Positions 2,621 to 53,870 of a stretch of DNA of 64,000 nt are shown in pieces. The notes under the pieces are model-generated. The model saw only the letters and a list, made by a program, of their open reading frames with translations, did not search any database and was not told the origin of the DNA. The position numbers were made by a program, and so were the translations under genes. Origin of the DNA: Sneathiella aquimaris (lineage in GTDB: Bacteria > Pseudomonadota > Alphaproteobacteria > Sneathiellales > Sneathiellaceae); the NCBI RefSeq assembly GCF_026409565.1, contig NZ_CP112881.1:3293501-3357500 (forward strand). Reading direction: 5' to 3'. Position 1 is the stretch's first letter. Every line of letters begins with the position of its first letter.

Positions 2621-2887
2621 CACACTAAAATTTTGTGTAATTATTTTATTTACATAATCAGATTATAAAATATATTTGCTGTGTGAGTGCAATTATCATT
2701 TGTACACATACAATAATTTGCGTTATTCTTTATTGAAACCAAGCCCCCTTGCGGGACTTATCACTAAAAAGAGTGTTTCAGTACGGTATGACAAGGCGTA
2801 AGATTAAACCTTACTATGGGTAACACCGGTAAGATCAGAACTGTCAGTGTGAACGAAAATACAATCTGATTGGAAGCGAGTAATAAA

Positions 2888-4759: not shown

Positions 4760-4760
4760 G

Positions 4761-9600: not shown

Positions 9601-12600
9601 GTCATCACCAGCATCCCCGCGCATGACGTCGTTGTCGTCACCGCCCAGCATGGTATCGTCACCAGATCCACCGCTCATGTTGTCCTGACCGGAACCGCCT
9701 TCCATATGATCATTGCCGTTTTCGCCGAACAACCGATCGTTACCAGCATCACCATAAAGCAGGTCATCGCCGTCGCCGGTCCACATGATGTCGTTGCCGT
9801 CACCACCCAGAACCGTATCCTGCCCACTATTGATGAAGTTATCATCAAAACGGTCATTCCCTTTTCCTAGTTCAACATAGTCGTTGCCGCTAGAACCAGG
9901 ACCGTCGTTGTAGTTGTTATTACTACCACCCCAGACAGTATCGTCACCCGTTCCGCCAAGAATAACATCATCTCCAGCGTCACCGAAGATCAGATCATTG
10001 TGGGCACCACCGGACATAACGTCATTACCGGCACCGCCAGACATTGTGTCATGGCCTCTACCGCCATACATAAGGTCATCGCCTGCATCGCCGGACATGT
10101 CATCACGACCTCGACCACCGGACATAAAGTCGTTACCGGCACCGCCAGACATGTCATCATTACCGGCGTCACCATACATAACGTCTTCACCCGTATCGCC
10201 GGTCATTGTGTCACGACCGGAACCACCAGACATAAAGTCGTTGCCTGCACCGCCGGACATTTCATCCCGACCGGTTCCGCCAGACATAAAGTCGTTACCG
10301 GCACCGCCAGACATTTCATCATTACCGGCATCACCAAACATCACGTCATTGCCTGCACCGCCGGACATTGTGTCTCGGCCAGCACCACCAGACATAAAGT
10401 CATTGCCTGCACCGCCGGACATACTGTCGTTACCGGCATCACCATACATCACGTCATCACCAGCACCGCCGGTCATTGTGTCACGACCAGAACCACCAGA
10501 CATCTGGTCATTGCCAGCACCACCGGACATTTCATCGCGACCGGTTCCACCAGACATGATGTCATCGCCACCTTCGCCAGACATTGTGTCGTTTCCGGCA
10601 TCACCATACATCAGGTCATTTCCACCGGATGCGGCATCATCGCCATCATCACCAAACATGACATCATCACCGGCTCCGCCAGCCATCGTGTCATCGCCTA
10701 ATTCAGTTACGGCAAAATTTTCAACAGAAACGTTGAGAGTGTAGCTATCGCCGGCGTCGAGACTAGCGCCGCTGACATTAAACCCGTCAGATGCTTCGGA
10801 TGGGAAATCTGCAATCGCGATATAATAAACACCAGCGTTCAAAGTCGTACTGAGACGCGGATCAAGATTTGTTTCTACTGATCCAGAATCACGGCCATTG
10901 TCGTCGTTAAACGCGATCAGATTACCGGCAGCATCGAATAAGAAAAGTTCCGCGTCTGTGGCCCCTGTTGTATTACTATAGGTCATTCCACCATCAATAT
11001 CCAAAACGACCAAAGAGCCATCTTCTGTCACGGTGAAGCTATACCATTCTTTTCCACCGTCACTGACAGACGCGACAGATACATGAGGATCCGTTGCAGA
11101 ATTCTGAACGTTCGGATCTTCTTGCAACCCAAAACCACTATCCAGGTTCTGAGCGGTCAAATGGCTGGTATTACCACTAACACGATTGATATTAACATCA
11201 CCGTTCGCACTTGATCCATTTTCACCGATGCCATCGCCATACATGACATCTGCTCCGCCTTCACCGAACATATTGTCATTTCCGGCCCCGCCGAACATTG
11301 TGTCGTCATCACCGACTTCGGCATTATCACCGTTATCGCCATACATCAGATCATCACCGGCATCGCCATACATAACATCAGCACTGCCGGAACCGCCAAA
11401 CATGGTATCCGTACCATCACCACCAGACATATCGTCGTTACCGGTACCGCCGTGCATCCAGTCGTCACCATCTTCGCCAGACATGCTGTCATCACCGGCA
11501 TCACCGTGCATCGTATCGGCGCCTTCGCCGCCCAGCATGGTGTCATCATCTTCACCACCAGACATAGAGTCGCGACCTGCGCCACCATCCATCTGGTCGT
11601 TACCATCTTCGCCAAACATGACATCGCGACCGCCATCACCGGACATGCTGTCACCGCCAGTGCCGCCGTACATCAGATCACTGCCACCGTTACCTTCCAT
11701 GGTATCACGGCCGGCACCACCAAACATCGTATCGCGGCCAGCTCCACCGGACATGTCATCACGGCCAGCGTCGCCATACATGATGTCGTCGCCGTCGTTG
11801 CCTTCCATCGTGTCACGACCTGCGCCACCATACATGGCATCATTTCCTGCGCCACCTGTCATATCATCGCCAGCATCACCGCCATACATCAGGTCGTTAC
11901 CAGAACCACCACCCATATGATCATTGCCTGCACCGCCATACATGATGTCGTCGCCACTATCGCCGTGCATGTCATCACCTGCGCCGCCGCCATACATCAG
12001 GTCGTTACCAGAACCACCACCCATATGATCATTGCCTGCACCGCCATACATGATGTCATCGCCACCATCACCGTGCATATCATCGCTGCCTGCGTCGCCA
12101 TACATGATGTCGTCGCCGTCGTTGCCTTCCATCGTGTCACGACCTGCGCCACCATACATGACGTCGTTGCCTGATCCACCGCTCATGGTGTCGTCACCTT
12201 TGCCGCCATACATCAGGTCGTTACCAGAACCACCACCCATATGATCATTGCCTGCACCGCCATACATGATGTCGTCGCCACTATCGCCGTGCATGTCATC
12301 ACCTGCGCCGCCGCCATACATCAGGTCGTTACCAGAACCACCACCCATATGATCATTGCCTGCACCGCCATACATGATGTCATCGCCACCATCACCGTGC
12401 ATATCATCGCTGCCTGCGTCGCCATACATGATGTCGTCGCCGCCGTTGCCTTCCATCGTGTCATTGTCGTCGCCACCATACATGACGTCGTTGCCTGATC
12501 CACCGCTCATGGTGTCGTCACCTTTGCCGCCATACATCAGGTCATTGTCTTCAAGGCCGAACATACGATCGTCGCCATTATCGCCGAACATTGTATCATC

Positions 12601-14985
12601 GCCCGTGTCGCCGATCAGCAGATCATGACCGCCGTTACCGCGGATCATGTCATTGCCTGACCCACCCGCAACCGTATCGTTGCCGTGGCCTGCCAAAATA
12701 GCATCATCGCCGCCCTGACCGAAAATAACGTCATGCCCCCAGCCGCCGTAGATCAGGTCTGCACCGCCATAGTTCCATTCCACAGCGTTACGGTACGCAG
12801 AAACAGCACCTGCTGTACCATTATAGAGACCGAACATGATCTGGAAATAAAGGGAGTTGATGTCATCTGGCGTAAACTCTTCCGCGTCCTGTCCGAATAT
12901 ATCCAGACCCGCATTATCGCCATAAATAATGTCGCTTCCGTCACCTGCAACAATGATATCCCGCATATATTGCTGCGGATCACCGAACTGGTCGTTTCCA
13001 ATACCGCCCTGTAGAATGTCGTCTTCTACAAACAGAGCATTCGGAGAGAAATCACCATTTTGAATAGGGAACTCTTTTTTGCCGAAATCATTACCCCAGC
13101 CACCTGAGATGATTTCATCACCGATCAACAGATCACCCGTCCCGTATTCATTATATCCGAACGGATTTTCATTGCCGATTTCGTCGCCACCTTCTGAACC
13201 ATAAAACCCTTTACCCAAAGGCAAAGGCTTGCCGATGTCATTTCCAGAACCACCGTCCAGTGTGTCATCTACACCGTCCCGACGACCAAAAATGACGTCA
13301 GTTCCAGTGCCGCCAACCAACATATCCCGGCCCTGATCATCAATGATCACATCACCGCCGCTGTCGCCCATCAGAATATCGTTGCCAGCGCCACCGTCCA
13401 GATAGTCGTTATGCTCGCCACCGCTCAGTGTGTTTTCTGTTTCGTCACCGATAAGGAAGTCCTGTGCCCGGCCACCTTCGACCACACCAGTTTCATCATT
13501 GGTGAAATCTTCGTCATTTGTTCCCACAACGATGACATTCTGACCATCATTATCGATCAGCTCTTCCGGTGTTGGCTCCGGTCCTTCTGCCTGCCCCGGA
13601 TTCATATCATCATTATACGGATCCTGAGGGTTCGGATCGTAGGCATCATTGTTGTTGCCAACAGTTGGTGTCAGGCCTGTTGTCCAGTCCCCCGCCGTGT
13701 TGGTATCGGCATTGTCGACACGCGCAAAAACATTATTAATATCGATGTCGTGGAAGAAATTTTCGCCAAGTGGGCTTTGCGCAACCATGTCATCGAGACT
13801 AATAGGCGCATATTCATCGAACACCTGTTCCGCAACAACTTCCTGCGTCGCGATTTGACCATTGAACGTTTCGCTATCTCCAAAGATGTCAAGACCGACA
13901 CCGCCGTCTGGAGAGCCTTCCCAGCCAGAATTCAAAAAGGCCGGTTCAAACTGTGCACCATTGGCAAGGAACGTATCCAATTCAGTAACGTCACCGTTCA
14001 AGGCCCAAGTCAGAAGCACGCCCAATGGCTGTGTTGTGTTGAGACCCATTGGCCAGTCACCACTTGTCACACCGCCAGCACTTTGCGGGACGCCGTCTCC
14101 GTCAAAGATAACGTAAATTGTCTGTGGCGCGCCCTCTTCCTCTTGTGATTCAAGCTGCATGATAACCAGCTTACCGTTCGCAGGAATATCAACAGTTGGA
14201 AGATCGAAAGTGACCGGGTCACCATCCGGGCCAATAATTGAAAGCGATGTAATGCCGTCACCAACCGTTGACGGTCCGTTGCCAGCTGTCGACTGTACAA
14301 GATTTGTCGTGTTGCGAAGTTCAATAAAATCAACAGAACTGTTTCCTGCAGCATCAATGAAATTTGTAACTGTTGGGTTGCCTAATGCCAACAAAGCTTC
14401 CGTCAGAGCTTCATCACCCTCGTCTTCGCTAGCAACACGCGCTGAGCGTTCTTGCTCATCCCGTGGTGTCGAGAAACGCAGAGCGCCCAACCCAATTTCA
14501 TTCAGATCCAATTCAGGGGCGCCAGGGATTGCGATAAATTCTTCTGGTGGGCCATCAGCAGGAAAACCAAGTTCCGTTGGATCAAGCAGGTTAGAAATAC
14601 CGATACCATCACCAATGCCGTCGTCACCATATGCACCGAAGGAAGCACCGCCGCCCGTTCCGCCAGCACCAGGACCACCCGCTGCTGGGGCAACCAGATC
14701 TGGATTGAACTCTTCGACAAGGCCAGTAACATCTGCTGCTGTTACAACAGAGCCATCAGAAAGTGTTAGTTGAGGAGGAAGGTCGGTCGCAGCTTGAGAG
14801 AAAAAGCCATCAAGAACCACAGAGGTGCCATCAGCAATTGACGTAATAACCAAGTTACTGCCGTCTTGTGAAAAGACGACCAAATCCGCATTTTCAATAT
14901 CCAGAAGAATATTCTGACCTGCTTCAACTTCGACAATTGTGCCGCCGGAGGTACCTGTTACTACGCCGTTTTCACTTTTAGCCAT
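6655..14985 (-). CDS. Giant LapA-like RTX adhesin, copy 1 (2,776 residues)
   Basis: A secreted calcium-binding repeat protein. Residues 1-103 are a beta-rich N-terminal module ending in APAAGG (PAAG at 100-103), like the LapA retention module with its LapG cleavage site, followed by a Gly-rich linker. Then come a lamin-tail-like region (about 195-400), RTX blocks from about 500, a pre-peptidase C-terminal (PPC)-like domain (about 1272-1428), a second RTX array to about 2160, a VCBS/cadherin-like domain (about 2270-2400), a DUF642-like carbohydrate-binding domain (about 2440-2605), last RTX repeats and a VCA0849-type type I secretion target. There is no Sec signal peptide and no cysteine-rich part. 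The start MAKSENG at 14985 matches the paralogue and has AAGGA 9 bases upstream; an in-frame ATG at 15039 is less likely. Most RTX positions that usually carry Leu or Ile hold Met. No type I transporter lies in the window. Confidence 0.88.
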   Translation of the reverse strand: MAKSENGVVTGTSGGTIVEVEAGQNILLDIENADLVVFSQDGSNLVITSIADGTSVVLDGFFSQAATDLPPQLTLSDGSVVTAADVTGLVEEFNPDLVAPAAGGPGAGGTGGGASFGAYGDDGIGDGIGISNLLDPTELGFPADGPPEEFIAIPGAPELDLNEIGLGALRFSTPRDEQERSARVASEDEGDEALTEALLALGNPTVTNFIDAAGNSSVDFIELRNTTNLVQSTAGNGPSTVGDGITSLSIIGPDGDPVTFDLPTVDIPANGKLVIMQLESQEEEGAPQTIYVIFDGDGVPQSAGGVTSGDWPMGLNTTQPLGVLLTWALNGDVTELDTFLANGAQFEPAFLNSGWEGSPDGGVGLDIFGDSETFNGQIATQEVVAEQVFDEYAPISLDDMVAQSPLGENFFHDIDINNVFARVDNADTNTAGDWTTGLTPTVGNNNDAYDPNPQDPYNDDMNPGQAEGPEPTPEELIDNDGQNVIVVGTNDEDFTNDETGVVEGGRAQDFLIGDETENTLSGGEHNDYLDGGAGNDILMGDSGGDVIIDDQGRDMLVGGTGTDVIFGRRDGVDDTLDGGSGNDIGKPLPLGKGFYGSEGGDEIGNENPFGYNEYGTGDLLIGDEIISGGWGNDFGKKEFPIQNGDFSPNALFVEDDILQGGIGNDQFGDPQQYMRDIIVAGDGSDIIYGDNAGLDIFGQDAEEFTPDDINSLYFQIMFGLYNGTAGAVSAYRNAVEWNYGGADLIYGGWGHDVIFGQGGDDAILAGHGNDTVAGGSGNDMIRGNGGHDLLIGDTGDDTMFGDNGDDRMFGLEDNDLMYGGKGDDTMSGGSGNDVMYGGDDNDTMEGNGGDDIMYGDAGSDDMHGDGGDDIMYGGAGNDHMGGGSGNDLMYGGGAGDDMHGDSGDDIMYGGAGNDHMGGGSGNDLMYGGKGDDTMSGGSGNDVMYGGAGRDTMEGNDGDDIMYGDAGSDDMHGDGGDDIMYGGAGNDHMGGGSGNDLMYGGGAGDDMHGDSGDDIMYGGAGNDHMGGGSGNDLMYGGDAGDDMTGGAGNDAMYGGAGRDTMEGNDGDDIMYGDAGRDDMSGGAGRDTMFGGAGRDTMEGNGGSDLMYGGTGGDSMSGDGGRDVMFGEDGNDQMDGGAGRDSMSGGEDDDTMLGGEGADTMHGDAGDDSMSGEDGDDWMHGGTGNDDMSGGDGTDTMFGGSGSADVMYGDAGDDLMYGDNGDNAEVGDDDTMFGGAGNDNMFGEGGADVMYGDGIGENGSSANGDVNINRVSGNTSHLTAQNLDSGFGLQEDPNVQNSATDPHVSVASVSDGGKEWYSFTVTEDGSLVVLDIDGGMTYSNTTGATDAELFLFDAAGNLIAFNDDNGRDSGSVETNLDPRLSTTLNAGVYYIAIADFPSEASDGFNVSGASLDAGDSYTLNVSVENFAVTELGDDTMAGGAGDDVMFGDDGDDAASGGNDLMYGDAGNDTMSGEGGDDIMSGGTGRDEMSGGAGNDQMSGGSGRDTMTGGAGDDVMYGDAGNDSMSGGAGNDFMSGGAGRDTMSGGAGNDVMFGDAGNDEMSGGAGNDFMSGGTGRDEMSGGAGNDFMSGGSGRDTMTGDTGEDVMYGDAGNDDMSGGAGNDFMSGGRGRDDMSGDAGDDLMYGGRGHDTMSGGAGNDVMSGGAHNDLIFGDAGDDVILGGTGDDTVWGGSNNNYNDGPGSSGNDYVELGKGNDRFDDNFINSGQDTVLGGDGNDIMWTGDGDDLLYGDAGNDRLFGENGNDHMEGGSGQDNMSGGSGDDTMLGGDDNDVMRGDAGDDSMSGDAGDDWMHGGSGNDDMSGGDGVDTMFGGAGSADVMDGGAGNDLMYGDNGDDAEVGDNDTMRGGDGDDVMFGEGGADVMYGNDGRDNMSGGAGNDVMFGDDGADVMYGDAGNDDMYGGAGNDVMSGGAHNDLIFGDAGDDNISGGDGDDTVWGGSNNNHNDGVGSSGNDYVDLGDGNDRFDDNSINSGQDTVLGGAGNDAMWTGDGDDLLYGDAGTDRMFGEGGNDHMEGGSGQDNMRGGSGDDTMLGGDDNDVMRGDAGDDSMSGDAGDDWVFGQGGADVMYGGDGNDTLSGGAGNDVIDGGRNNDVLRGDSGDDVLDGGRGRDDLEGGSGDDHLIGGRGHDTLTGGSGDDTVEGGRGNDTLRWTMSDQENVSTDTYNGGNNGDTLELFFTQAEFDANEDAIAEFANRVENGETDATLTIGGRTLVANNIENVAVMVDNVEIPVLIDDLIETDENVDSLGNTITATLSTPTQDFIPNDGDVSFNPPGAVAVTMPGAAFPQTFAEGDWNQVGQVWTIDLVDGADNYGTLTFDASDPENVQVSLDVPAGQDTIYDPMDDGDQAQIVFDYSATVDGVEDATVTININGVNDAPVAGDDIVITNTLDGIYVPQYAMLANDTDIEGDPLNVASVTPDASLDGDDVYVPGSNRIINGSFEDHGTDVNVGHGSWATYNSVPGWFIDQAGADAPIELQFGGTGGIGAQDGNTKMELDSHNEGGYTQSNSHVYQDVSTTPGEELTVSFWYSPRSTNSTNDVEVYWDGELLTTLSGTTKGWTEFSFEVEAGSGTETRLEFHGLPTEDTQGGYIDNVYVGDRDYDYQVSDGDLEDTGHVDVQYQTGNYLAGGDANEIIIGGDDADTISGGDGDDTLIGGEGNDVLDAGDGEDTFHYSDADTDGDDIILNFDENDDAINLDAVFDELGIAPDARADMVNLTLDSGNTVITVDGQSDFSITVQGSDLTGDGSLTQEQLLAQNGIVVSDES
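8776..10045. repeat. 795-bp period duplication inside RTX copy 1
   Basis: Matching landmarks recur 795 bases apart: CCAGTCATCACC at 8776 and 9571, CCCGCGCATGACGTCG at 8821 and 9616, and CCAGACAGTATCG at 9136 and 9931. The period equals 265 residues, so the frame is kept. The duplicated block includes the non-repeat insert with NSGQDTVLGG and WTGDGDDLLYGDAG as well as RTX nonapeptides. The copies have diverged at scattered bases, and the second copy contains further RTX units. Confidence 0.8.
11881..12528. repeat. Two near-identical 324-bp tandem units inside RTX copy 1
   Basis: GCCATACATCAGGTC begins at 11881 and 12205, and again at 12529 where the copy breaks off. Each 324-bp unit encodes 108 residues, that is twelve RTX nonapeptides. 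Units differ at only a few places, for example GTCGTTGCC against GCCGTTGCC near their ends. Inside each unit a 108-bp sub-repeat is also visible (11881 and 11989). Confidence 0.85.
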
Positions 14986-15096
14986 ATTCGTAATCCTTAC
15001 CCTCATATCCCCTGATAGGAATGTATTTACCTGTTTCATCCATTGCAGATGACAGAACTATAATTGAGAAGGAGACTATTCAGTTAATCAACTGAT

Positions 15097-15247: not shown

Positions 15248-18200
15248 TCAGCTTTCGTCACCTACGTTAATACCCTTGGCTGTCAAAAGGTCAGAGGCAG
15301 AAACGTCTCCGTTATGGTCCCCGAGGTCAACGTTATAAAGGGTTATGGAAAAATCGCTCTCCCCACTAACCGTAATGGTCGTGCTTCCCGCATTTTCGTC
15401 CAAAATGACCAAATCGGCCCGATTCTCGGCCCCTGCTATTCCCAATTCATCAAACAAGGCATCCAGATTGACCACATCCTCGTTCACATCAAAATCAAGA
15501 AGGATGTCATCGCCATCGTCCACATCATAAAAATGAACGACATCTGCTCCGGCACCGCCTTCGATAACGTCATTACCGCCGCCACCGGCGATCGTATCGT
15601 CACCGCCACCGCCGACAATTGTATCAGCCCCGTCACTACCAATTGCAATTTCGGAACGGTCATCACCTTGCAGGAAGCCTGAATGCAGAACCGGTTTTCC
15701 AATTCCCTGATCAAAGCCCTGATACTCAACGGTAACATCAGCAGAATCACCATCATTTCCGTCTGATGCTTCATATCCAAAAACAACATCCGCATTTGGA
15801 TCACCTGATGGTGTAACAGTCGAATATCCACCCGCAGATGTTGCTGGACTATCGACAGAGCCAACAGACAAAGCATCGCCTTCCGGATCAACATCATTCG
15901 CCAGCATGCCATATTCAGGAATATCAATAGGGGCTTCCGAATTGGTGATAACGATGTCATCGGCAGCAACAATCGGCTCGTCCTTACCGTTCACTGTGAT
16001 GGTGATCGTAGCTGTTTCAGAACCTTCCTTATGAGCACCGTAGTCAAATGTTACCGTCCCTGACTGGCCATCAATCAAATCATCGAACGAAGATCCGCCC
16101 GCAGGAATATCCAAGGTGACTGTTACATTCTCTGGATCAGACGCATCAAAAATAAGATCACCGTAATCGTTTCCGAAAGCTTCAAGAGACATACTCCAGA
16201 CTGAACTGCCATTATCTACCCAATTAATTACAAACCAAGTTGTAGTCACATTAGGTACAGCGACAGTCACCTGGTCCGGCATATCAAAAACGGTTCCGCC
16301 AGCATTCGGAATAAAATCCTGACCTGGCGTCGCAAGATCCGCTGTAACGCGCGCCGTAATATCCGTATCTTCATCCGTTACGAAACTGTCATCGATCAAA
16401 ACAGGGATTTCCAGACCATCCACATGAACCGCGACATGTTCAACCTGTTCAGCCGTCAGTGCGCGACCATTAATAACAAGGGTATCCGATTCACCGTTCT
16501 CAACGCGATTTGCAAATTCAGCAATAGCAGCCTCATGCGCATCAAACTCAGCCTGCGTCAGGTAAAGCTCAAGTGTATCCGTGCCGCTGCCACCTGAATA
16601 AGCATCTGTCGAACCGCCGTCCTCTTCACCGGCTGTCCAGCGTAGAAGGTCGTCGTTCAGACCACCGTCCAACGTATCATCACCGACGTTACCTTCCAGC
16701 GTGTCATTACCAGCGCCACCTTCCAGAAGATCAGAACCTGTTTGGCCTGCAAGGAAATCGTCGCCTGCATCCCCGTGCAAACTATCCCCTCCACCGTTAC
16801 CAAACAAGGTATCCCCGCCGGCGCCGCCGAATAGAATATCATCATCGCCGATCAGGGCATCCGCGCCATCATCGCCATATAGCAAATCATTATTGTCACC
16901 ACCATACAGGACATCAAAACTTCCACTACCACCGTAAAGCGTATCATCACCCCCAGCGCCAAGCATCACATCATCGCCTGCCTCGCCATACATCAGGTCA
17001 TCATCCTGACCACCATCCATGACGTCGTTGTCAGCGCCCCCATAAAGAGTGTCGTTGCCGGTACCACCATACATGCGGTCATTACCTGCATCGCCAAACA
17101 TGCTGTCATTGCCGTCGCCGCCATGCATGTCATCCTGACCATCATCGCCGAACATGGCATCCTGACCGTCATTGCCGACCATTTCATCATTTCCGGCACC
17201 GCCATACATAAGATCGTCACCCTGATCACCGTGCATGTCGTCACTGGCGTCGCCGCCATGCATTATATCGTTACCGCTGCCACCGCCAATGTGATCATTA
17301 CCAGCACCGCCATACATAATGTCATTGCCGTTACCGCCATGCATTTCGTCCCGACCATCGTCGCCATACATAACGTCCTGACCGTCATTGCCGTCCATTT
17401 CATCATTTCCGGCACCACCATACATTAGATCGTCACCCTGATCACCGTGCATGTCGTCATTGGCGTCGCCGCCATGCATTATATCGTTGCCGCTGCCACC
17501 GCCAATGTGATCATTACCAGCACCGCCATACATAATGTCATTGCCGTTACCGCCATGCATATCGTCCCGACCATCGTCGCCGTACATAACGTCCTGACCG
17601 TCATTGCCGTCCATTTCATCATTTCCGGCACCACCATACATAAGATCATTACCAATTCCGCCGGTCATTTCGTCGTTGCCATCACCGCCATAGAGAAGGT
17701 CATCATCTTCCTGACCATGAATTACATCAGAGCCGGCGTCGCCATAAATGGTGTCGTTACCTGTATCGCCCAACAGGAAGTCATACCCGCCATTGCCCCG
17801 TATTTTATCGGCGCCGGAACCACCCGCAACCGTATCGTTGCCGTGGCCTGCCAAAATAGCATCATCGCCGCCCTGACCAAAAATCAGGTCAGCGCCCCAA
17901 CCACCATAGATCAGATCTGCGCCACCATAATTCCATTGAACTGCATCGCGATAAACTTCTGCAAAGTCTTCTGCACTGGCGCCATATCCCAGACTGCTCA
18001 GGATCGCGTAATAAAATGAATTAATGTCTTCAGGTGTAAATTCTTCTGATGCATTGCCGTAAAAACTAAGACCTGCATTATCACCATAAATAATGTCGTT
18101 TCCATCTCCGGCCACCATGATATCGCGCATATATTGTTGCGGATCACCAAACTGGTCATTTCCAAATCCACCAACGAGGATATCATCCTCTACAAGAAGA

Positions 18201-20209
18201 GCCCGTGGACCAAAATCACCATTTTGCTCAGGACCTCCTTTCTTACCGAAATCATTACCCCAACCACCAGAGATAATGTCATCACCTATAAGCAGGTCTC
18301 CCGTACCATACTCGTTGTAACCGAAAGGGTTTTCGTTTCCAATTTCGTCGCCCGCCTCTGCGCCGAGCAATACCTTACCCAAAGGAATAGGCTTGCCGAT
18401 ATCATTTCCTGAACCACCGTCCAGCGTATCATCCTCACTGTCCCGGCGCCCAAAAATCACGTCAGAACCAGTACCACCAACCATCACGTCCTGACCTTGA
18501 TCATCAATAATCACGTCACCGCCGCTGTCACCCATCAACATATCGTTGCCAGCGCCGCCATCCAGATAGTCGTTATGCTCGCCGCCGCTCAGATCATTAT
18601 TGTTTTCATCACCAAACAGGAAGTCCTGACCACGCCCACCATTGACCACGTCACTTTCACCGTCTGTGAAGTCATCATCATTAACGCCCACAATAATGAC
18701 ATTCTGACCATTATTGTCGGTTTCTTCCCCGGGCGCCGCCTCAGGCCCTTCTGCCTGACCCGGATTCATATCGTCATTATACGGGTCTTGCGGATTGGGG
18801 TCGCTAACATCATTGTTTTCGCCAATAGAATGTGTTTGACCTGTGGTCCAGTCTTCTGCTGTGTCTGTATCCGCGTTATCGACGCGGGCAAAAATATTGT
18901 TGCCAGCGATATCAAGGAAGAAAGTCTCCGCAATCGGGCTGCATTCAACCAACTGTTCTGCACTAATCGGTGCATAGGCATCAAAAATACCGGGCGCAAC
19001 AACTTCCTGCAGAAGGATTTTGCCGTTAAACGTGCCGTTATCTCCAAAGATATCCAGCTCAACAGGATCTCCGCCGACCTCCGGATTGGCAAGCCAACCT
19101 GCATTGAGGCTCTCTGGCTCAAACCGGTAACCATTAGCCAGGAAAGTATCCAGTTCAACAACATCCCCGTTCACAGCCCAGCTCAGAAGAACGCCCAGTC
19201 CGCTTGACGTATCACTGCCTACTGGCCAAGCTTCACCTCCGTCAGAAACAGTACCCCCACTAACAGGGTCGCCATCGGCATCAAAGACAACGTAGACTGT
19301 CTGAACAGCGCCTTCATCTTCTTCATCGTCTCCTTCAAAAGACGCCTGCATAATGACGAGCTTTCCGTTGGCAGGCACCTCTATGACCGGAAGATCAAAA
19401 GTAACAGGATCCCCGTTTGGACCAATAATCGAAACACTGGTAACGCCGTCAGGAGAGTTTACGCCCCCATTGCCCGCCGTTGATAACGGAGCATCAGACG
19501 CATTCCGGAGCTCGATAAAGTCAACTTTGCTGCGACCTGCGAAATCAATGAAGTCGTCAATTTCCGGATTACCAAGCGCCAACAGCTTTCCGGTCAGCTC
19601 TAGATCACCTTCAGGCTCGATATCATCATAAACGCTTTTCTGAAGTGTTGGGATTTCACTCTCATCATTTGGTTTTTCCCGCAGAAACCCGAAGCGGATG
19701 GCGCCTAAACCAATTTCATTCAACAACAGATCGGGCTGTCCTGGCAAAATACTAACGAACTCTTCAATGACATCATCCCCACCGAAGCCGAGTTCCGTTG
19801 GATCAAGCAGTCCGGCAATACCAATGCCGTCACCAATGCCATCATCCCCATAAGCGCCAAAAGAAGCACCACCACCGGTACCGCCACCAGCGCCAGGACC
19901 ACCGGCTGCAGGTGCGACGAGATCAGGATTAAACTCTTCCACCAGGCCGGTAACATCTGCTGCGGTCAAAACAGACCCATCAGACAGAGTTAACTGTGGC
20001 GGTAGATCCGTTCCTGCTTGAGAGAAAAAGCCTTCCAGAACAATAGAGGCCCCATCTGCAATAGAGGTGACAACAAGATTGCTACCCTCTTGCGAAAAAA
20101 CGACAAGATCGGCATTGGCGATATCCAGCAGGACATTCTGCCCAGCTTCCACCACGACCAGAGTACCACTTGAACTACCTGTAACCGCGCCATTTTCAGT
20201 TTTAGCCAT
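15248..20209 (-). CDS. LapA-like RTX adhesin, copy 2 (1,653 residues)
   Basis: A paralogue of the neighbouring giant RTX protein with the same domain order but a shorter repeat array. The N-terminal module starts MAKTENG and ends APAAGG, with the predicted LapG-type site PAAG at residues 100-103, followed by a Gly-rich linker. Then come a lamin-tail-like region (about 200-390), RTX repeats with IYGDNAG and WNYGGADLIYGGWG segments, the main array (about 783-1186), a VCBS/cadherin-like domain (about 1293-1420), short terminal RTX repeats (about 1516-1556) and a VCA0849-type type I secretion signal ending VGDES. It lacks the PPC and DUF642-like domains of copy 1. Calcium would fold it outside the cell. 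It is likely an outer-surface adhesin held in its exporter until cleaved (inference from LapA). Confidence 0.88.
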   Translation of the reverse strand: MAKTENGAVTGSSSGTLVVVEAGQNVLLDIANADLVVFSQEGSNLVVTSIADGASIVLEGFFSQAGTDLPPQLTLSDGSVLTAADVTGLVEEFNPDLVAPAAGGPGAGGGTGGGASFGAYGDDGIGDGIGIAGLLDPTELGFGGDDVIEEFVSILPGQPDLLLNEIGLGAIRFGFLREKPNDESEIPTLQKSVYDDIEPEGDLELTGKLLALGNPEIDDFIDFAGRSKVDFIELRNASDAPLSTAGNGGVNSPDGVTSVSIIGPNGDPVTFDLPVIEVPANGKLVIMQASFEGDDEEDEGAVQTVYVVFDADGDPVSGGTVSDGGEAWPVGSDTSSGLGVLLSWAVNGDVVELDTFLANGYRFEPESLNAGWLANPEVGGDPVELDIFGDNGTFNGKILLQEVVAPGIFDAYAPISAEQLVECSPIAETFFLDIAGNNIFARVDNADTDTAEDWTTGQTHSIGENNDVSDPNPQDPYNDDMNPGQAEGPEAAPGEETDNNGQNVIIVGVNDDDFTDGESDVVNGGRGQDFLFGDENNNDLSGGEHNDYLDGGAGNDMLMGDSGGDVIIDDQGQDVMVGGTGSDVIFGRRDSEDDTLDGGSGNDIGKPIPLGKVLLGAEAGDEIGNENPFGYNEYGTGDLLIGDDIISGGWGNDFGKKGGPEQNGDFGPRALLVEDDILVGGFGNDQFGDPQQYMRDIMVAGDGNDIIYGDNAGLSFYGNASEEFTPEDINSFYYAILSSLGYGASAEDFAEVYRDAVQWNYGGADLIYGGWGADLIFGQGGDDAILAGHGNDTVAGGSGADKIRGNGGYDFLLGDTGNDTIYGDAGSDVIHGQEDDDLLYGGDGNDEMTGGIGNDLMYGGAGNDEMDGNDGQDVMYGDDGRDDMHGGNGNDIMYGGAGNDHIGGGSGNDIMHGGDANDDMHGDQGDDLMYGGAGNDEMDGNDGQDVMYGDDGRDEMHGGNGNDIMYGGAGNDHIGGGSGNDIMHGGDASDDMHGDQGDDLMYGGAGNDEMVGNDGQDAMFGDDGQDDMHGGDGNDSMFGDAGNDRMYGGTGNDTLYGGADNDVMDGGQDDDLMYGEAGDDVMLGAGGDDTLYGGSGSFDVLYGGDNNDLLYGDDGADALIGDDDILFGGAGGDTLFGNGGGDSLHGDAGDDFLAGQTGSDLLEGGAGNDTLEGNVGDDTLDGGLNDDLLRWTAGEEDGGSTDAYSGGSGTDTLELYLTQAEFDAHEAAIAEFANRVENGESDTLVINGRALTAEQVEHVAVHVDGLEIPVLIDDSFVTDEDTDITARVTADLATPGQDFIPNAGGTVFDMPDQVTVAVPNVTTTWFVINWVDNGSSVWSMSLEAFGNDYGDLIFDASDPENVTVTLDIPAGGSSFDDLIDGQSGTVTFDYGAHKEGSETATITITVNGKDEPIVAADDIVITNSEAPIDIPEYGMLANDVDPEGDALSVGSVDSPATSAGGYSTVTPSGDPNADVVFGYEASDGNDGDSADVTVEYQGFDQGIGKPVLHSGFLQGDDRSEIAIGSDGADTIVGGGGDDTIAGGGGNDVIEGGAGADVVHFYDVDDGDDILLDFDVNEDVVNLDALFDELGIAGAENRADLVILDENAGSTTITVSGESDFSITLYNVDLGDHNGDVSASDLLTAKGINVGDES
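17161..17645. repeat. 216-bp tandem units inside RTX copy 2
   Basis: CCTGACCGTCATTGCC occurs at 17161, 17377 and 17593, giving two full 216-bp units and a partial third. Each unit encodes 72 residues, eight RTX nonapeptides. Units differ at a few bases only. The period differs from that in copy 1 (324 bp), so the arrays expanded independently after the gene duplication. Confidence 0.85.
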
Positions 20210-20540
20210 TTTAGTAACCTCTCACACTTCCGAGCTGGAGTGGAACAAATCTATTTATTGAAATCAATATTTCACGGATTTCGCATATTTGACAAAAAAC
20301 ATACAGGGGTAAAAAGAACTCGTCATACCCCATATGGGTGAATTTTAACAAAAAATTTACTTTTATTTAAAAACTCTGAAAACTTCGCCTTGAAACAAAG
20401 GAAACCTGCATCGTTTGTGAAGAGTGTGACGGAAAAACCAAGTACGGGAAGAGGCAAAAAACAAATTGTCGCATTTTTTGAGAAGAAAGATTATTGTTAC
20501 ATTTGTTTGTTAAAGCTTGGAACTTGGGGAAGCCAACATA
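20210..20540. other. Intergenic region between RTX copy 2 and flbT
   Basis: This divergent, AT-rich region must hold the promoters of RTX copy 2 (minus) and flbT (plus). The only clear signal is the motif at 20322-20341 shared with RTX copy 1. GGGGAAG before the flbT start is the ribosome binding site. No small gene is seen. Confidence 0.5.
20322..20341 (-). promoter_or_regulatory. Candidate operator of RTX copy 2, shared with copy 1
   Basis: GTCATACCCCATATGGGTGA holds the palindrome CCCATATGGG (20329-20338) and lies 113 bases from the RTX copy 2 start. Sixteen of 20 bases agree with the stretch 112 bases before RTX copy 1. The palindrome form suggests a dimeric regulator. The regulator is not identifiable. 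Confidence 0.4.
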
Positions 20541-20930
20541 ATGTCTTTGAAATTTCGTATTCCAGCCGGAGAAAAAATTATTGTCAACGGCGCCGTCATT
20601 ACCAACACCAGTACGAAGGCCATGCACTTCTCGTTGGAAAATGACGCTTCAATTATGCGGGAACGTGACATTATTCTTCCGGGCAATGTTAAAACCCCCA
20701 TTGATGGCGTTTATCTGCATATACAGATGATGTATATCGAACCTGAAAACCATGAGGCCCATTATAGAGCCTTTCAGGAAGCCGCCCAAATCGCGTTCCT
20801 TTCCCAGAATACAGAGGACTCACCTATTAAAGCGGTTATCTTTGAGGTTGTCGGCCTTGTAGGCGAACGGAACTTCTATGGCGCATTAAAATTACTTCAA
20901 AAAGTAAGGAAGCAGGAAAGCGCGGCCTGA
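20541..20930 (+). CDS. flbT: Flagellin synthesis regulator FlbT
   Basis: A 129-residue protein. MSLKFRIPAGEKIIVNGAV and the middle MYIEPENHEAHYRAF are typical of FlbT. In Caulobacter FlbT binds the 5' untranslated region of flagellin mRNA and lowers its translation and stability until the hook is complete; FlaF acts with it. Both FlbT and FlaF are present here, bracketing two flagellin genes. ATG 20541 is chosen over an in-frame codon at 20517 because GGGGAAG precedes it with normal spacing and the family starts here. It is cytoplasmic. A first flagellin gene follows after 313 bases. Confidence 0.9.
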   Translation: MSLKFRIPAGEKIIVNGAVITNTSTKAMHFSLENDASIMRERDIILPGNVKTPIDGVYLHIQMMYIEPENHEAHYRAFQEAAQIAFLSQNTEDSPIKAVIFEVVGLVGERNFYGALKLLQKVRKQESAA

Positions 20931-21243: not shown

Positions 21244-22422
21244 ATGGCTTTTTCAGTAAACACTAATTCTAATGCCATGGCCGCACTGCGGTCACTTAGC
21301 TCCACTCAGAGCAACATTACTTCCATTCAGTCTCAGATTCAGTCTGGTTTGAAAATCGGAAGCGCGACAGATGATCCATCAACATTCGTGATTTCGCAAG
21401 GAATGCGCGGCGATGTAGGATCACTGAAAGCTGTTCAGGAAGGACTGAACTTTGGTAAAGCGACTGTTGGTATGGCTCTTGCTGCTGCAACGCAGATCTC
21501 AGATCAGCTGACTTCACTTCAATCAAAAGTTACTCAAGCGAAAAACGAAGGCCTGGATACAGCCGTTCTTCAGTCAGAAGCTGACGAGATGGTTGCACAG
21601 ATCTCTGGTATCGTATCAAGCGCAGAGTTTAACGGTATTAACCTTCTCGACAATGGTGGCACAACATCCGGTCTTAATGTTCTTTCCGGTCTTGGCGGAA
21701 CAACTTTGACGGTTGCTGAACAGAACGCTACCACAACTGGTTTGGGTATCGACGGTCTTGATTTGACCGCTGAATACGCTCGTATCACAGTTGCAGACGC
21801 CTTTAACCCAGCTGAATCAAACACTTTCACAGTGACTATTCAGGATGGTGCAAATGCGGACGTTGAAACACATATTTTTGAATTGACTGGTGACGGCAAC
21901 GCGCTGACATCTGCTCCAGACGAAAGTAATGCGGTTCCTGTATTTGTCCATGCCGTTGACGTTGACTTCACAGCCAACACAGGTGACTCCGGTCAGGCAA
22001 TCATTGGTAAACTTGCTGATGTAATGCGTGAAGAAGGCTTCACTGTAACAATCAACGAAAGTGGTTCATTCGACATCTCTAAAGGTGGTCAGGAACTTAA
22101 CGTTGCAACAACTGTTGCCGCTGGTACAACTGTCGCTATCGACCAAGCTGGTTCAGCTTCAACCGACATTGCTGCTGCCAAAGCTAGCATCGGCGCAATC
22201 ATGACGACCCTTGGTACTTATTCCAACCGTTTGGATAGTCAGGCTGAGTTTACTCAGGTCCTGTCTGATAAACTGGAAGAAGGCCTCGGAATTCTGGTAG
22301 ACGCAAACCTTGCTGAAGTCTCCGCTAAACTGCAGTCTGAACAGACTAAAGAACAGCTCGGCATTCAGTCATTGTCAATTGCCAACCAGGCTTCTCAGTC
22401 TATCCTGGGTCTGTTCCGATAA
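21244..22422 (+). CDS. Flagellin (copy 1)
   Basis: A 392-residue flagellar filament subunit. The conserved N-terminal D0/D1 helices (MAFSVNTNSNAMAALRSL, with DDPSTFVISQGMRGDV) and C-terminal D1/D0 helices (LDSQAEFTQVLSDKLEEGLG, ending SILGLFR) are intact. The middle (about 150-300) is the variable, surface-exposed part and is Thr/Ser/Ala-rich. Exported by the flagellar type III apparatus without a cleaved signal peptide. It is closely related to the second flagellin in the window, with the same shared TADGNALTSAPDES-like segment. A strong terminator follows, so the gene is probably monocistronic. Confidence 0.95.
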   Translation: MAFSVNTNSNAMAALRSLSSTQSNITSIQSQIQSGLKIGSATDDPSTFVISQGMRGDVGSLKAVQEGLNFGKATVGMALAAATQISDQLTSLQSKVTQAKNEGLDTAVLQSEADEMVAQISGIVSSAEFNGINLLDNGGTTSGLNVLSGLGGTTLTVAEQNATTTGLGIDGLDLTAEYARITVADAFNPAESNTFTVTIQDGANADVETHIFELTGDGNALTSAPDESNAVPVFVHAVDVDFTANTGDSGQAIIGKLADVMREEGFTVTINESGSFDISKGGQELNVATTVAAGTTVAIDQAGSASTDIAAAKASIGAIMTTLGTYSNRLDSQAEFTQVLSDKLEEGLGILVDANLAEVSAKLQSEQTKEQLGIQSLSIANQASQSILGLFR

Positions 22423-22445: not shown

Positions 22446-22471
22446 AAGGCGGCCTTCGGGTCGCCTTTTTT
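22446..22471 (+). terminator. Rho-independent terminator after flagellin 1
   Basis: AAGGCGGCC (22446-22454) pairs with GGTCGCCTT (22459-22467) around a TTCG loop, with one G-T pair, and is followed by a T run. Confidence 0.9.
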
Positions 22472-22646
22472 GTTGGCTTGTTCCCGCCAAATTAAAAACA
22501 TTAACGGAATATTAATACTCCCACTGTTAAAATCATGCTTCCTGAAGTGCGCCTTTTCCACGAATACAAAAAGGCTGCTGCGGGAATGACAAATTACCGC
22601 AAGGTAGTCAGTGGCTTTTTTATTTAGGAAAAGTACAGGATCGATT

Positions 22647-23432
22647 ATGCAGTTGTCAGCCAATAGTTCATTGCTTTGGTATAAGCTTGCCGGCACACAA
22701 AAAGACGCCCACATGAGATTGTTCGAGGCGCAACCAACAACTGCGCGTGATATTGAAAAATTCAAAGAGGACATTGTCAAGATCACCTCCGTTGAAGAGT
22801 TGATGAAAAACAGAACACTCCTTGGTGTTACCCTTTCAGCCTTTCAGCTTGAAAGCGAGATTGACAAAACAGCGTTCGTCAAAAAAATGCTGACGGAAGA
22901 TCCTGAAAGTGATGACAGCCTTGTTAATAAACTAGTTGAACCGCGTTGGACAAAGCTGTCTAAGGCCCTTTATCCTTTAAATAGCGATCCTGCATTTTTT
23001 CAGAACGAGAAAAATGTAGATGCTATTCTGGAAGGGTACAAAACCAACGAGTTTGAAAAATTTGAAGGAACAAATGCGCCTGGCGTTCGTGAAGCCATGT
23101 ATTTCAAACGTATCGCAGGAGATGTAACTGAGATCCCGCAGGTTCTGGCAGACAAATCCCTGATGACAGTTGTTCGTGTGGGCCTCGGGCTACCCGAAAG
23201 CTTTCAATCACTTACCTATGAACAACAAAAAACCCGCCTGGCAAAAGAAGTTGATATCGAAGATTTCGCGGATCCCGCCAAAATCGACAAAATGATTGAA
23301 CGTTATTTGATCATGACAGAAATCAACAATACGGACGCGGCCTCAAATCCAATGCTGACACTCTTTCAGCCCGTTGGCGGCGGTGGCGGCAGTATTGGCC
23401 CGCAACCGATCTCCCTCAATCTGAATGTGTAA
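22647..23432 (+). CDS. DUF1217 flagellar-locus protein
   Basis: A 261-residue helical protein. SSLLWYKLAGTQKD at the N-terminus and DKTAFVKKMLTEDPESDDSL, then VNKLVEPRWTKLSKAL, are typical of DUF1217 proteins, which occur in the flagellar clusters of Alphaproteobacteria and whose exact role is unsettled. No signal peptide or membrane segment is seen. It ends in a Gly-rich tail (VGGGGGSIGPQP). The start ATG 22647 has ACAGGA 6 bases before it; an upstream frame start at 22611 is less likely because it would lie next to a T-rich leader. It sits between flagellin 1 and the TPR-methyltransferase on the same strand and may be cotranscribed with the latter (gap 72 bases). Confidence 0.8.
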   Translation: MQLSANSSLLWYKLAGTQKDAHMRLFEAQPTTARDIEKFKEDIVKITSVEELMKNRTLLGVTLSAFQLESEIDKTAFVKKMLTEDPESDDSLVNKLVEPRWTKLSKALYPLNSDPAFFQNEKNVDAILEGYKTNEFEKFEGTNAPGVREAMYFKRIAGDVTEIPQVLADKSLMTVVRVGLGLPESFQSLTYEQQKTRLAKEVDIEDFADPAKIDKMIERYLIMTEINNTDAASNPMLTLFQPVGGGGGSIGPQPISLNLNV

Positions 23433-23504: not shown

Positions 23505-25763
23505 ATGCAGGATTTTTCTACTAAGGAACAAAAAAAGTTCCATAAGCTGGCGATCAATGCCGCAAAATTCTATTCAAATCATCGCATTAGCGAGGCCCGG
23601 CGGCCCGTAAAAAGCCTGCTTGAGAGCAAATGGTCAGACCCCATGCAATTCTTTCAAACCGGAATTGCCGCCTATAATGCCTCTGATCTGGAAAGTTCTC
23701 TCGCTCTTTACAAGCGAACATTGACCCTTCCCGGAACAGAAACGGTAAAGCATTCGGATGTCCACTTGGCGATGGGACTCGTCTACGCTGCAAAGCGCGA
23801 CTATGAAACAGCTATTCAACATTATGACAAAGCCTTCGAAATCAATCCTCAGGATGCAAACATTCTCAACAATAGAGCGATTGCAAATTCCAGGCTGGGA
23901 AAACCGGAAGATGCCTTTCAAGATTTAAAGAAAGCATTTTCGATTTGGCCACATAACACAAACATTCTGCTTAATCTTGTGCGGGCGTACCGCGAAAAAG
24001 GCGAAACTGAAAACGCCTTGAAGCTTCTGGAAGAAAATCTGCCGTTTAACCCTGATAATGTGGACATTCTGGTTGCCATCGGGAACATCAAAAAACTGAC
24101 GAACCCCTTTGAAGCCATTCCTTACTATCGCAAAGCAACCCAGCTTGACCAAAACCATACGGTTGCCTTTAATCAGTTTGCTGGCCTGTTCGACCTTATG
24201 GGGAACATGAGTACCTATGATGGATTGGATCACGACCTTCTGACGTTGTTATCCAATGATCGGGTCCAATGGAAGAAACTCCATACGGCCATACCGCGAC
24301 ACCTCAAAGCACAACCGGATTTTGCGGAATTACTTCCATTGCTTCAGCAGTCTGTCAACACGGCCAAACCAGCTAATCTGGATTTTGGCAAGGTTGTCAA
24401 ATGTATGACGAACAATGTGTTGCTGGCAGGGATGAAACGCATTCGTTTGACCGATCCATTTATTGAACGGTTGCTGGAAACGTTCCGGCGCCAGACATTA
24501 ACCGCCCTTGTAAGCGATATTGAGCTCGACAAAAATCTTTCTTCGCTGCTGCTTGCCGTTGTTGCACCGCTTGTGAACTACAGTTTTTCGTCTGAATATG
24601 TTTTCTCGGAAACCAAGGCGGAAGCGGAAGCCTGCCAGAGTCTTCTGGACACCTTGAAGTTGGTTGGCAAAAAACCTACTGAAAACGACCTTCTGAAATT
24701 TTCAATTGTCGCCTGTTATCAACAACCATATCGAAATGACACGCTTGTCTCCTTGGCCAAACGCTGGGGGAAAACAGGGAACGCTGCCTTTGACTCATTG
24801 ATTGAACAAACGATTAACGAGCCTTTATACGAGCAAGACCTCTACCCGAAAATTCCGCAGCTAACACCGATCAATGACGCAATATCATTGTCTGTGCGCG
24901 AGCAATATGAGGAAAATCCTTATCCCAGATGGAAACATTTCCCCTTTTTAGGCAGCACCAGCCTGCAGAATAACCTGATCACCATTCTTCCTTCACTAAA
25001 TGGGCAGACACCAAACTTCCCGGAGAATCCAGAAGTCCTGATCGCAGGTTGCGGCACTGGACAACAACCCATTTCTACTGCGCTCGCCTTTCCAGAGGCC
25101 CGACTGACAGCAGTTGACCTTAGTCTTGCCAGTATTGCGTATGCAAAACGCAAATCTAAAGAAATGGGGGTCAAGACCGTTCAATATGGTCAGGCTGACA
25201 TTATGGAACTGCGGCAGCTCGATCGTCAGTTTGACGTTATTGAGTGTGCGGGCGTTCTTCACCATATGCACGACCCGATTGCTGGCTGGGAAGTTTTATG
25301 TGATCTGTTGCGAGATGACGGCTACATGCTCATCGCATTGTATAGTGAGATCGGTCGGCAAGATATCGTTGCTGCCCGACAGTTCATTGAAGACAATAAT
25401 TTTACCAGTGATGCCCATGGAATTCGCACCTGCCGCCAGACAATACTTACCCTGCCGGATGACAATTTGGCTAAGCATGTCAGTCGTCATGGTGACTTTT
25501 ATTCAACGTCGGCCTGCCGGGACTTACTGTTTCATGTTCAGGAACACCGTTTTACTATTCCTATGATCGAAGCAGCTCTCGAAAAACTTGGCCTGGAATT
25601 TCTGGGCTTCACTATCGCGTTCCAGCACCAGGAGGATGCTTACAAAAAAGCCTATCCTGAGGACACGAACCTGACAAACCTGAAAAACTGGGAAGCCTTT
25701 GAGAAAAAGAACCCGGATCTTTTCTCTGCAATGTATAAATTCTGGGTCAGGAAAAAGAGATAA
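23505..25763 (+). CDS. TPR and SAM-dependent methyltransferase fusion, likely flagellin-modifying
   Basis: A 752-residue two-domain protein. The N-terminal part (about residues 45-245) holds tandem tetratricopeptide repeats, for example YETAIQHYDKAFEINPQDAN and ENALKLLEENLPFNPDNV. The C-terminal part is a class I methyltransferase: motif I VLIAGCGTGQQP near residue 510, the acidic ribose-binding LTAVDLSLASI, and FDVIECAGVLHHM near 580. It lacks cysteine clusters of the FliB radical type. The location between two flagellin genes, and the analogy with Caulobacter FlmG (a TPR protein with a glycosyltransferase domain that binds flagellin), suggest that the TPR part captures flagellin for methylation (inference). 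A methyltransferase acting on a flagellin glycan is an alternative. A terminator follows. Confidence 0.85.
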   Translation: MQDFSTKEQKKFHKLAINAAKFYSNHRISEARRPVKSLLESKWSDPMQFFQTGIAAYNASDLESSLALYKRTLTLPGTETVKHSDVHLAMGLVYAAKRDYETAIQHYDKAFEINPQDANILNNRAIANSRLGKPEDAFQDLKKAFSIWPHNTNILLNLVRAYREKGETENALKLLEENLPFNPDNVDILVAIGNIKKLTNPFEAIPYYRKATQLDQNHTVAFNQFAGLFDLMGNMSTYDGLDHDLLTLLSNDRVQWKKLHTAIPRHLKAQPDFAELLPLLQQSVNTAKPANLDFGKVVKCMTNNVLLAGMKRIRLTDPFIERLLETFRRQTLTALVSDIELDKNLSSLLLAVVAPLVNYSFSSEYVFSETKAEAEACQSLLDTLKLVGKKPTENDLLKFSIVACYQQPYRNDTLVSLAKRWGKTGNAAFDSLIEQTINEPLYEQDLYPKIPQLTPINDAISLSVREQYEENPYPRWKHFPFLGSTSLQNNLITILPSLNGQTPNFPENPEVLIAGCGTGQQPISTALAFPEARLTAVDLSLASIAYAKRKSKEMGVKTVQYGQADIMELRQLDRQFDVIECAGVLHHMHDPIAGWEVLCDLLRDDGYMLIALYSEIGRQDIVAARQFIEDNNFTSDAHGIRTCRQTILTLPDDNLAKHVSRHGDFYSTSACRDLLFHVQEHRFTIPMIEAALEKLGLEFLGFTIAFQHQEDAYKKAYPEDTNLTNLKNWEAFEKKNPDLFSAMYKFWVRKKR

Positions 25764-25788: not shown

Positions 25789-25819
25789 AAAGCGGGTGAT
25801 TTCGTCACCCGCTTTTTTT
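25789..25819 (+). terminator. Rho-independent terminator after the TPR-methyltransferase gene
   Basis: AAAGCGGGTGA (25789-25799) pairs with TCACCCGCTTT (25805-25815) around a TTTCG loop and is followed by more T residues. Confidence 0.92.
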
Positions 25820-25960: not shown

Positions 25961-25975
25961 TGGCACACCTTTTGC
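25961..25975 (+). promoter_or_regulatory. Sigma-54 promoter of flagellin 2
   Basis: TGGCAC (25961-25966), 5 bases, TTGC (25972-25975) is a full match to the -24/-12 sigma-54 consensus with the required GG-N10-GC spacing. Transcription would start near 25987, about 55 bases before the flagellin 2 ATG. Late flagellar genes of Caulobacter use sigma-54 with FlbD, so the same kind of control is likely here. Confidence 0.88.
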
Positions 25976-26041: not shown

Positions 26042-27235
26042 ATGGCTTTTTCAGTCAATACAAATGTAAGCGCAATGGCGGCTCTCCGCACATTGACGAT
26101 AACACAAAGTGCTTTGAACAGCACACAGAGACAAATCGAAACCGGCCTTAAGGTCGCCGAAGCCAAAGACGATCCATCAACCTTCACGATTGCCCAGGGC
26201 ATGCGCGGAGATGTTGGTTCTTTGAAAGCCATTCAGGAAGGGCTTTCTTTTGGTCAAGCAACAGTAAATATGGCCAATGCTGGTGCGTTGCAGATTTCAA
26301 ACACCATCATTGATATGAACAAAAAAGTGACTCAGTCCTTCAATGAAGGCCTGGATATCACTGTTCTTCAGGAAGAAGCCGACGCTCTTGTCGCTCAGAT
26401 CAATTCAATTGTTGCCACCACGATCTTTAACGGTGTCAATCTGATCGACGGCTCTGGCACAGACCTTGAAGTATTGTCCGCTCTCGGCGGTGTTACACAA
26501 ACAGTAACCTCTCAGGATGCGACAACAGCCACTTTGGGTCTTTCAGGTTTCGACCTTTCAGCAACAGCATCCGTTATCTCAATTGACGATAACTATGCAA
26601 TCGCTGAAAATGACGTTTACACACTGACTTTATCAGATGCAAACGGAACCACTGCGATCCACCGCTTTGAAATCACTGCGGACGGTAACGCCCTGACTTC
26701 TGCACCGGATGAGAGTGCAACACCGCCAGTATACGTGCATGCCGTGACGGTTGCCCCAGGCACCCAGTCAGTGCAAGAAATGACCGGTATTATGGCGGGC
26801 GTCATGCGTCAGGAGGGATTCGCTGTAAAAATTGGTGAAAGCGGCACAATTTCCATTTCACATGGTCAAAATATTGCAGTTTCTGCTGCCAATGGCGGTA
26901 ACGATCTGACAACAACACCAGCCCCACCAAACGCTATTATCAATGCAATTGATAACACTGGTAACGACCCACTGGCTGTTCTTGAAAATGCAGAAATGCT
27001 TGTTGGACAGATCATCACAACGCTTGGTACTGCGGCTAACCGCTTGGATAGTCAGTCAGAATTCACCCAGCTGCTTGTTGATAAACTGGAGGAAGGTCTT
27101 GGTATCCTGGTGGACGCGAATCTAGCAGAGGCCAGTGCCCAACTTCAGGCCCTTCAGACCAAGGAACAATTGGGTATTCAGTCCTTGTCAATTGCCAACC
27201 AGCGGCCACAGTCAATCTTAAGCTTGTTCCAGTAA
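26042..27235 (+). CDS. Flagellin (copy 2)
   Basis: A 397-residue flagellin with intact terminal domains: N-terminal MAFSVNTNVSAMAALRTLTI and DDPSTFTIAQGMRGDV, C-terminal LDSQSEFTQLLVDKLEEGLG and SILSLFQ. The middle is the variable region and differs most from copy 1. Compared with copy 1 the DNA is clearly diverged, so this is an old duplication and not a recent copy. It has its own sigma-54 promoter and a GGAG ribosome binding site. flaF follows 61 bases later on the same strand with no clear terminator between them, so the two are probably cotranscribed. Confidence 0.95.
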   Translation: MAFSVNTNVSAMAALRTLTITQSALNSTQRQIETGLKVAEAKDDPSTFTIAQGMRGDVGSLKAIQEGLSFGQATVNMANAGALQISNTIIDMNKKVTQSFNEGLDITVLQEEADALVAQINSIVATTIFNGVNLIDGSGTDLEVLSALGGVTQTVTSQDATTATLGLSGFDLSATASVISIDDNYAIAENDVYTLTLSDANGTTAIHRFEITADGNALTSAPDESATPPVYVHAVTVAPGTQSVQEMTGIMAGVMRQEGFAVKIGESGTISISHGQNIAVSAANGGNDLTTTPAPPNAIINAIDNTGNDPLAVLENAEMLVGQIITTLGTAANRLDSQSEFTQLLVDKLEEGLGILVDANLAEASAQLQALQTKEQLGIQSLSIANQRPQSILSLFQ

Positions 27236-27296: not shown

Positions 27297-27698
27297 ATGT
27301 CTGTAGCAGCCTATCAAAACGCAAGTCGTGTTACCGAGAATCCGAGACAAACGGAATATCGGGCATTTGCAATCTTCACTCGTGCTTTGGAAGAAGCTGA
27401 GGCAGAAGGTCCAGTCGCAGTCGTAAAAGCCGTCGCTGACAACCGTCAACTTTGGCTCACCCTGCAAATGGACCTGATCTCTCCTGAAAACGGGCTCCCA
27501 AAAGAGCTTAAAGCCCAGCTTCTTTCCATCGCTATTTGGGTGAACAGATACAGCGACAATGCAATGAAAGGCGAAGCGTCATTGGAGCCTCTGATTTCAG
27601 TCAATAAAGAAATAATGGAAGGCCTGCGCGGTGCTCCAAAAAATGATCAACCATCAGAAGAAACAGCGCCTGGGAGCGTAAATCCGGTAAAGGCATAA
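27297..27698 (+). CDS. flaF: Flagellar regulator FlaF
   Basis: A 133-residue protein. The pattern AYQNASRVTENPRQTEYRAF, then LWLTLQMDLISPENGLP and LKAQLLSIAIWVNRYSD, is that of FlaF. FlaF is needed for flagellin synthesis in Caulobacter, where it acts opposite to the repressor FlbT and works as a secretion chaperone for flagellin. The C-terminal 25 residues are polar and variable. Downstream of flagellin 2 and probably in its transcript, so under sigma-54 control. Confidence 0.9.
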   Translation: MSVAAYQNASRVTENPRQTEYRAFAIFTRALEEAEAEGPVAVVKAVADNRQLWLTLQMDLISPENGLPKELKAQLLSIAIWVNRYSDNAMKGEASLEPLISVNKEIMEGLRGAPKNDQPSEETAPGSVNPVKA

Positions 27699-47584: not shown

Positions 47585-47596
47585 GGAGACGACCCC

Positions 47597-52016: not shown

Positions 52017-52017
52017 A

Positions 52018-52632: not shown

Positions 52633-52675
52633 ATCAACCTATCAATCAATCTCCAGATGAATAGCCCCTAGTTTT

Positions 52676-53814: not shown

Positions 53815-53870
53815 AATAGCCTCCTCCCCTCAAATTTAGGTTAGAAAGTGTCTACATATCTAGGGGCTAT

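Follow-up and report, generated by a model that had tools for sequence, protein, structure and literature searches.

A TPR-methyltransferase encoded between two flagellin genes of Sneathiella aquimaris: a candidate flagellin-modifying enzyme on the plan of FlmG

The window analysed here, a stretch of 64,000 nucleotides from the genome of Sneathiella aquimaris, contains a flagellin locus in which a gene for a TPR-methyltransferase (23505-25763, + strand) is located between two flagellin genes. The surrounding genes, all on the + strand and assigned by Pfam, are FlbT (20517-20930), flagellin 1 (21244-22422, 392 aa) and a DUF1217 gene (22611-23432, true start likely near 22647) on the 5′ side, and flagellin 2 (26042-27235, 397 aa) and FlaF (27297-27698) on the 3′ side, in agreement with the placement between two flagellins in a flbT/flaF locus that was given in the preliminary description. 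Both flagellins have a central domain of about 150 aa. The DUF1217 gene is directly 5′ of the TPR-methyltransferase gene with a gap of 72 bp, and a terminator-like hairpin stands on either side of the pair, one 3′ of flagellin 1 (22446-22467, + strand) and one with a 12-bp stem 3′ of the TPR-methyltransferase gene (25789-25815, + strand), the regional number of such sites being not above that in shuffled sequences. An exact match to a sigma-54-type promoter site, TGGCACACCTTTTGC (25961-25975, + strand), lies upstream of flagellin 2, and a search for sigma-28-type sites found none. Because hairpins are present on both sides and flagellin 2 has its own sigma-54-type site, DUF1217, as the first gene, and the TPR-methyltransferase gene probably constitute one transcription unit.

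The interval from the 2-oxoacid oxidoreductase genes (2870-5783) to flbT contains two genes for giant RTX-repeat proteins (6655-15039 and 15248-20209, both on the - strand). RTX genes related to these adjoin flbT only in the Sneathiella clade with long flagellins, described below, and are absent there in the short-flagellin genomes. On the other side of the locus, a proton-antiporter-like subunit and DabA (46013-50029, + strand) make up a probable DAB inorganic-carbon transporter, and an Eco29kI-type restriction enzyme and a cytosine methylase adjoining an IS3-like transposase and an integrase (50766-55640) form a probable mobile restriction-modification island.

The TPR-methyltransferase gene starts with an ATG preceded by AGGA and encodes 752 aa. 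Pfam matches to TPR families fell within residues ~44-231 and those to families of class I methyltransferases within ~503-617, all far over the cut-off. The AlphaFold model (mean pLDDT 94.4, pTM 0.89), taken together with Pfam, places a helical TPR array at residues ~7-231, followed by a helical linker domain up to residue ~449 and a PKMT/Rv2067c-type methyltransferase domain at residues 467-752 (24903-25760, + strand). Thus the open reading frame, the Pfam matches and the model all uphold the layout first described for this protein, TPR repeats joined to a class I methyltransferase in 752 residues, and Pfam and the model likewise support its resemblance to FlmG with a methyltransferase in place of the glycosyltransferase. 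The methyltransferase domain contains the motifs YEENPYP (468), GCGTG (515), VDLS (537) and GVLHH (583), and further on LYSE (612) and DFYSTSACRD (664). Structure comparison of the modelled residues 467-752 gave Z 24.4 over 265 residues for Rv2067c, 20.4 for PKMT2 and 19.2 for PKMT1, followed by another methyltransferase at Z 17.1, with generic ones at or below that value, and a sequence search agreed, matching most of the domain to Rv2067c (E 5e-22) and also finding PKMT2 (E 1e-8). The model also has the two-part dimerisation insert of the Rv2067c/PKMT type, namely a helical insert after beta5 (619-675) and a two-helix insert between beta6 and beta7 (707-735). The model suggests that the methyltransferase head folds as a protein lysine methyltransferase, with Rv2067c and PKMT as its nearest relatives. 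A stand-alone methyltransferase of 414 aa without TPR is encoded outside the window in the same genome (L002:1501-2265; G000:C1:713776-714540) and has 29% identity to this head.

The closest loci were those of Sneathiella, and 23 genomes of this genus were compared together with the window genome. A full-length orthologue was present in 7 of these 24 genomes (window genome included), with 43-55% identity over ~745 residues in the six others, and all seven copies lie between or beside flagellins at the same locus, in the gap that we call the slot. In a sister clade of 10 genomes the locus reads flbT-fla-DUF1217-fla-flaF, with the same outer neighbours and no enzyme, and a single flagellin ORF was seen at the locus in one of them (G013). 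Flagellins of the sister clade have 265-289 aa, versus ~380-400 aa in the slot-bearing clade, where an extra central domain of ~150 aa accompanies the slot. Trees of DUF1217 and of the carboxylase indicate that the division into long and short flagellins is a single clade split; the 9 versus 10 genomes are therefore not independent and amount to one evolutionary event, and we dropped them as independent support. Enzyme exchange inside the long clade is more informative. Two genomes with long flagellins and no methyltransferase (G005 and G009) hold TPR-sulfotransferases (PF13469 with TPR) in the slot, and in three others (G014, G016 and G018) methyltransferase and TPR-sulfotransferase occur there together. 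TPR-sulfotransferase fusions were observed between flagellins at L045, L047, L049, L065 and L066, with up to four in a row. PF13469 was found neither in the 7 short-flagellin genomes searched nor in the window genome, and none of the genomes compared showed a glycosyltransferase in the slot. Since TPR-sulfotransferases replace or join the methyltransferase, the slot appears to hold TPR-enzyme modules, and we tentatively suggest that it is an exchange slot, taking a methyltransferase, one to several sulfotransferases, or both, so that relatives may mark the same flagellin differently. Most slot genomes also have a second FlaF-like gene (~136 aa) between flagellin 1 and DUF1217 (L045, L046, L047, L049 and L050), which was not seen at that place in the window genome.

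With modest confidence, we regard a TPR-guided flagellin methyltransferase, built on the FlmG plan with another catalytic head, as the best explanation of these data. The TPR array would capture newly made flagellins 1 and 2 in the cytoplasm, and the Rv2067c/PKMT-type head would move methyl groups from SAM to protein side chains of the flagellins before export, lysine being the first choice of acceptor to judge from the fold. Points that speak against this reading include the position of most family members away from flagellins and the scarcity of lysine in the central domains.

Concerning the position of the family, TPR-methyltransferases that carry the QYEENPYPRW motif occur widely among Proteobacteria, and their range extends to Pelagibacteraceae and Prochlorococcus. 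Flagellin was absent from the examined flank in most of the best 80 loci. It did adjoin the enzyme at one locus in Gallionella, at an alphaproteobacterial hook-gene locus and at four loci in Thalassospira, in one of which a flagellin stands on each side of the enzyme, with FlaG and FliD coming next. On the tree of this first set, flagellin-adjacent copies gave four label changes, or origins, and a single origin was rejected (p 3e-37). An even set of 144 alphaproteobacterial genomes contained 28 TPR-methyltransferases in 24 genomes, and 4 of the 28 adjoin flagellin, two in Sneathiella and two in further families. The gene order is TPR-methyltransferase, flagellin, FliD, FliS, flagellin in G084, where the enzyme lies inside a FliD-FliS-FliK-FlgD cluster, and FlbT, methyltransferase, flagellin in G130, whose methyltransferase copy has 406 aa and no Pfam TPR match. 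Outside Sneathiella, 2 cases within 500 bp of flagellin were seen in this class sample, versus ~0.05 expected by chance (P 0.001). Counting Sneathiella together with Thalassospira, Gallionella, OFTM257, G084 and G130, the family has thus come to lie beside flagellins on about six independent occasions, more often than chance would predict. No flagellin was detected in 6 of the 24 carrier genomes of the class sample, and flagellin is therefore not the sole substrate of the family. The preliminary description had named orthologues commonly found away from flagellin genes as evidence against its proposal; this holds for the wider family, which is mostly elsewhere and occurs also in flagellin-less genomes, but not for Sneathiella, where all seven orthologues are in the slot.

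A further 13 Sneathiella genomes have no slot copy and carry a TPR-methyltransferase at another, unrelated place, mostly next to a betaine transporter, a Gcw_chp protein and a sulfate permease, and none was found in four incomplete or lower-quality genomes. The two kinds of copy never occurred in one genome among those compared, a pattern that might reflect a common function with no tie to flagellin. They separate on the tree; a joint clade was not rejected (p 0.137), and both may therefore do one job. These observations, together with the family's presence in flagellin-less genomes, would fit a single general Sneathiella TPR-methyltransferase that moved into the flagellin locus in one clade, by chance or for the sake of expression, and has a target unrelated to flagellin. 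We consider this unlikely, because such an enzyme would leave unexplained the repeated, independent recruitment next to flagellins, the slot position kept across seven species at the identities given above, and the TPR-sulfotransferases in the same slot.

Another point against TPR-guided methylation of flagellin concerns the acceptor. Central domains of the long flagellins have 0-2 lysines per ~150 residues (0.5% Lys), and flagellins adjoining such enzymes in other lineages are also lysine-poor, so that exposed lysines are unlikely to be methylated in the manner of FliB. Lysine enrichment was rejected as a methylation signature for the same reason, and lysine content is non-discriminating in any case since the sulfotransferase-only species are equally lysine-poor. 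Because the added domain is almost lysine-free, the target would be conserved D0/D1 lysines or another residue. Four lysines, K37, K62, K95 and K369 (flagellin 1 numbering), all in the helical core, do not vary among the 17 long flagellins analysed and are the best candidates if the acceptor is lysine. K62 is found in 17 of 17 long flagellins and in 0 of 19 short ones, but this reflects a single clade event, and K62 is also present in Thalassospira and not in Gallionella, leaving it only a candidate. Tyrosine was rejected as a sulfation site, with 0-4 Tyr in the central domains of slot genomes, some having none, and no conserved site. The flagellin 1 model was of moderate quality (pLDDT 77, pTM 0.54) and shows the centre only as a separate mixed domain.

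The composition of this central domain, with 20% Ser+Thr and almost no Lys, Arg or Tyr, raises the alternative that a sugar on the Ser/Thr-rich domain is methylated, and that the TPR-sulfotransferases of sister genomes, which occupy the same slot, sulfate the same sugar. O-methyl and O-sulfate groups are frequent glycan decorations. This alternative is nevertheless improbable in our view, given that NeuB, Maf-type (MptE-like) and GT41 enzymes, the families searched, are all missing from the window genome, that the slot holds no glycosyltransferase in any genome, and that the fold is closest to protein lysine methyltransferases. Thus, of the earlier proposal that the enzyme methylates flagellin or its sugar, the sugar option is weakened by the absent enzymes and the fold, and flagellin itself stays the presumed acceptor. 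It is very unlikely that the enzyme acts on some other surface protein, the most plausible candidates being the giant RTX proteins encoded nearby, which belong to the same clade-specific insertion beside flbT and recall the giant surface proteins modified by the relatives KmtA (AtaA) and PKMT1/2 (OmpB) (PMC11784438), because the Thalassospira, Gallionella, OFTM257, G084 and G130 flagellin loci have no RTX-like neighbours, the RTX proteins contain 0.5-1% Lys, and their genes are on the opposite strand.

An open-literature search found no prior report of a TPR-methyltransferase or sulfotransferase tied to flagellin. If TPR-guided flagellin methylation is true, it would be a second flagellin methylation route, unrelated to FliB, and the FlmG principle, a TPR adaptor bringing flagellin to a catalytic domain, would extend to methylation and, in sister species, to sulfation. 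A bacterial flagellin that is sulfated directly, and one that is methylated by a PKMT-type enzyme, would then each be new, according to the same search. The empty slot of the short-flagellin sister clade and the swaps in the long clade would together offer a comparative test of the added domain and its modification.

Among known proteins, Rv2067c of Mycobacterium tuberculosis (PDB 8HKR), with histone H3K79 as its reported substrate, is the solved structure most similar in both sequence and fold. It shares with the TPR-methyltransferase the LYxxxGR and DxxSxSA regions and the four-helix and two-helix inserts that form its dimerisation domain, whereas it has no TPR part and its C-terminal domain is missing from the TPR-methyltransferase. 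The outer-membrane protein lysine methyltransferases, rickettsial PKMT1 and PKMT2 and KmtA, have the next-closest fold, and PKMT2 shares the YxExPYP domain start. In the alignment the SAM-contacting Asp102 of PKMT1 is kept as D538 and His146 is replaced by A582; with this hallmark Asp retained but the His lost, the enzyme resembles PKMT without being one of the outer-membrane type. The middle and C-terminal substrate domains of PKMT are absent, as the TPR-methyltransferase ends at the last core strand (residue 752), and the TPR domain is its own addition in comparison with PKMT1, PKMT2 and KmtA. FliB, the flagellin lysine methyltransferase of Salmonella, has only the proposed substrate class in common with it and is an unrelated enzyme of another kind, whose CX4CX3CC motif binds a [4Fe-4S] cluster (PMC8598068). 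This motif is absent from the TPR-methyltransferase, which has eight scattered Cys, and with the Rv2067c/PKMT-type fold this substantiates the initial view that the two are not related. FlmG of Caulobacter, whose TPR domain is needed and sufficient for flagellin binding (PMC7591256), offers the nearest plan: both proteins have N-terminal TPR and a C-terminal transferase, FlmG acts on cytoplasmic flagellins, as the TPR-methyltransferase would, and both hosts have the alphaproteobacterial flagellar gene set including FlaF and FlbT. The window genome has no NeuB, unlike the FlmG system, and the head of FlmG is a GT-B glycosyltransferase, whereas that of the TPR-methyltransferase is a class I SAM methyltransferase.
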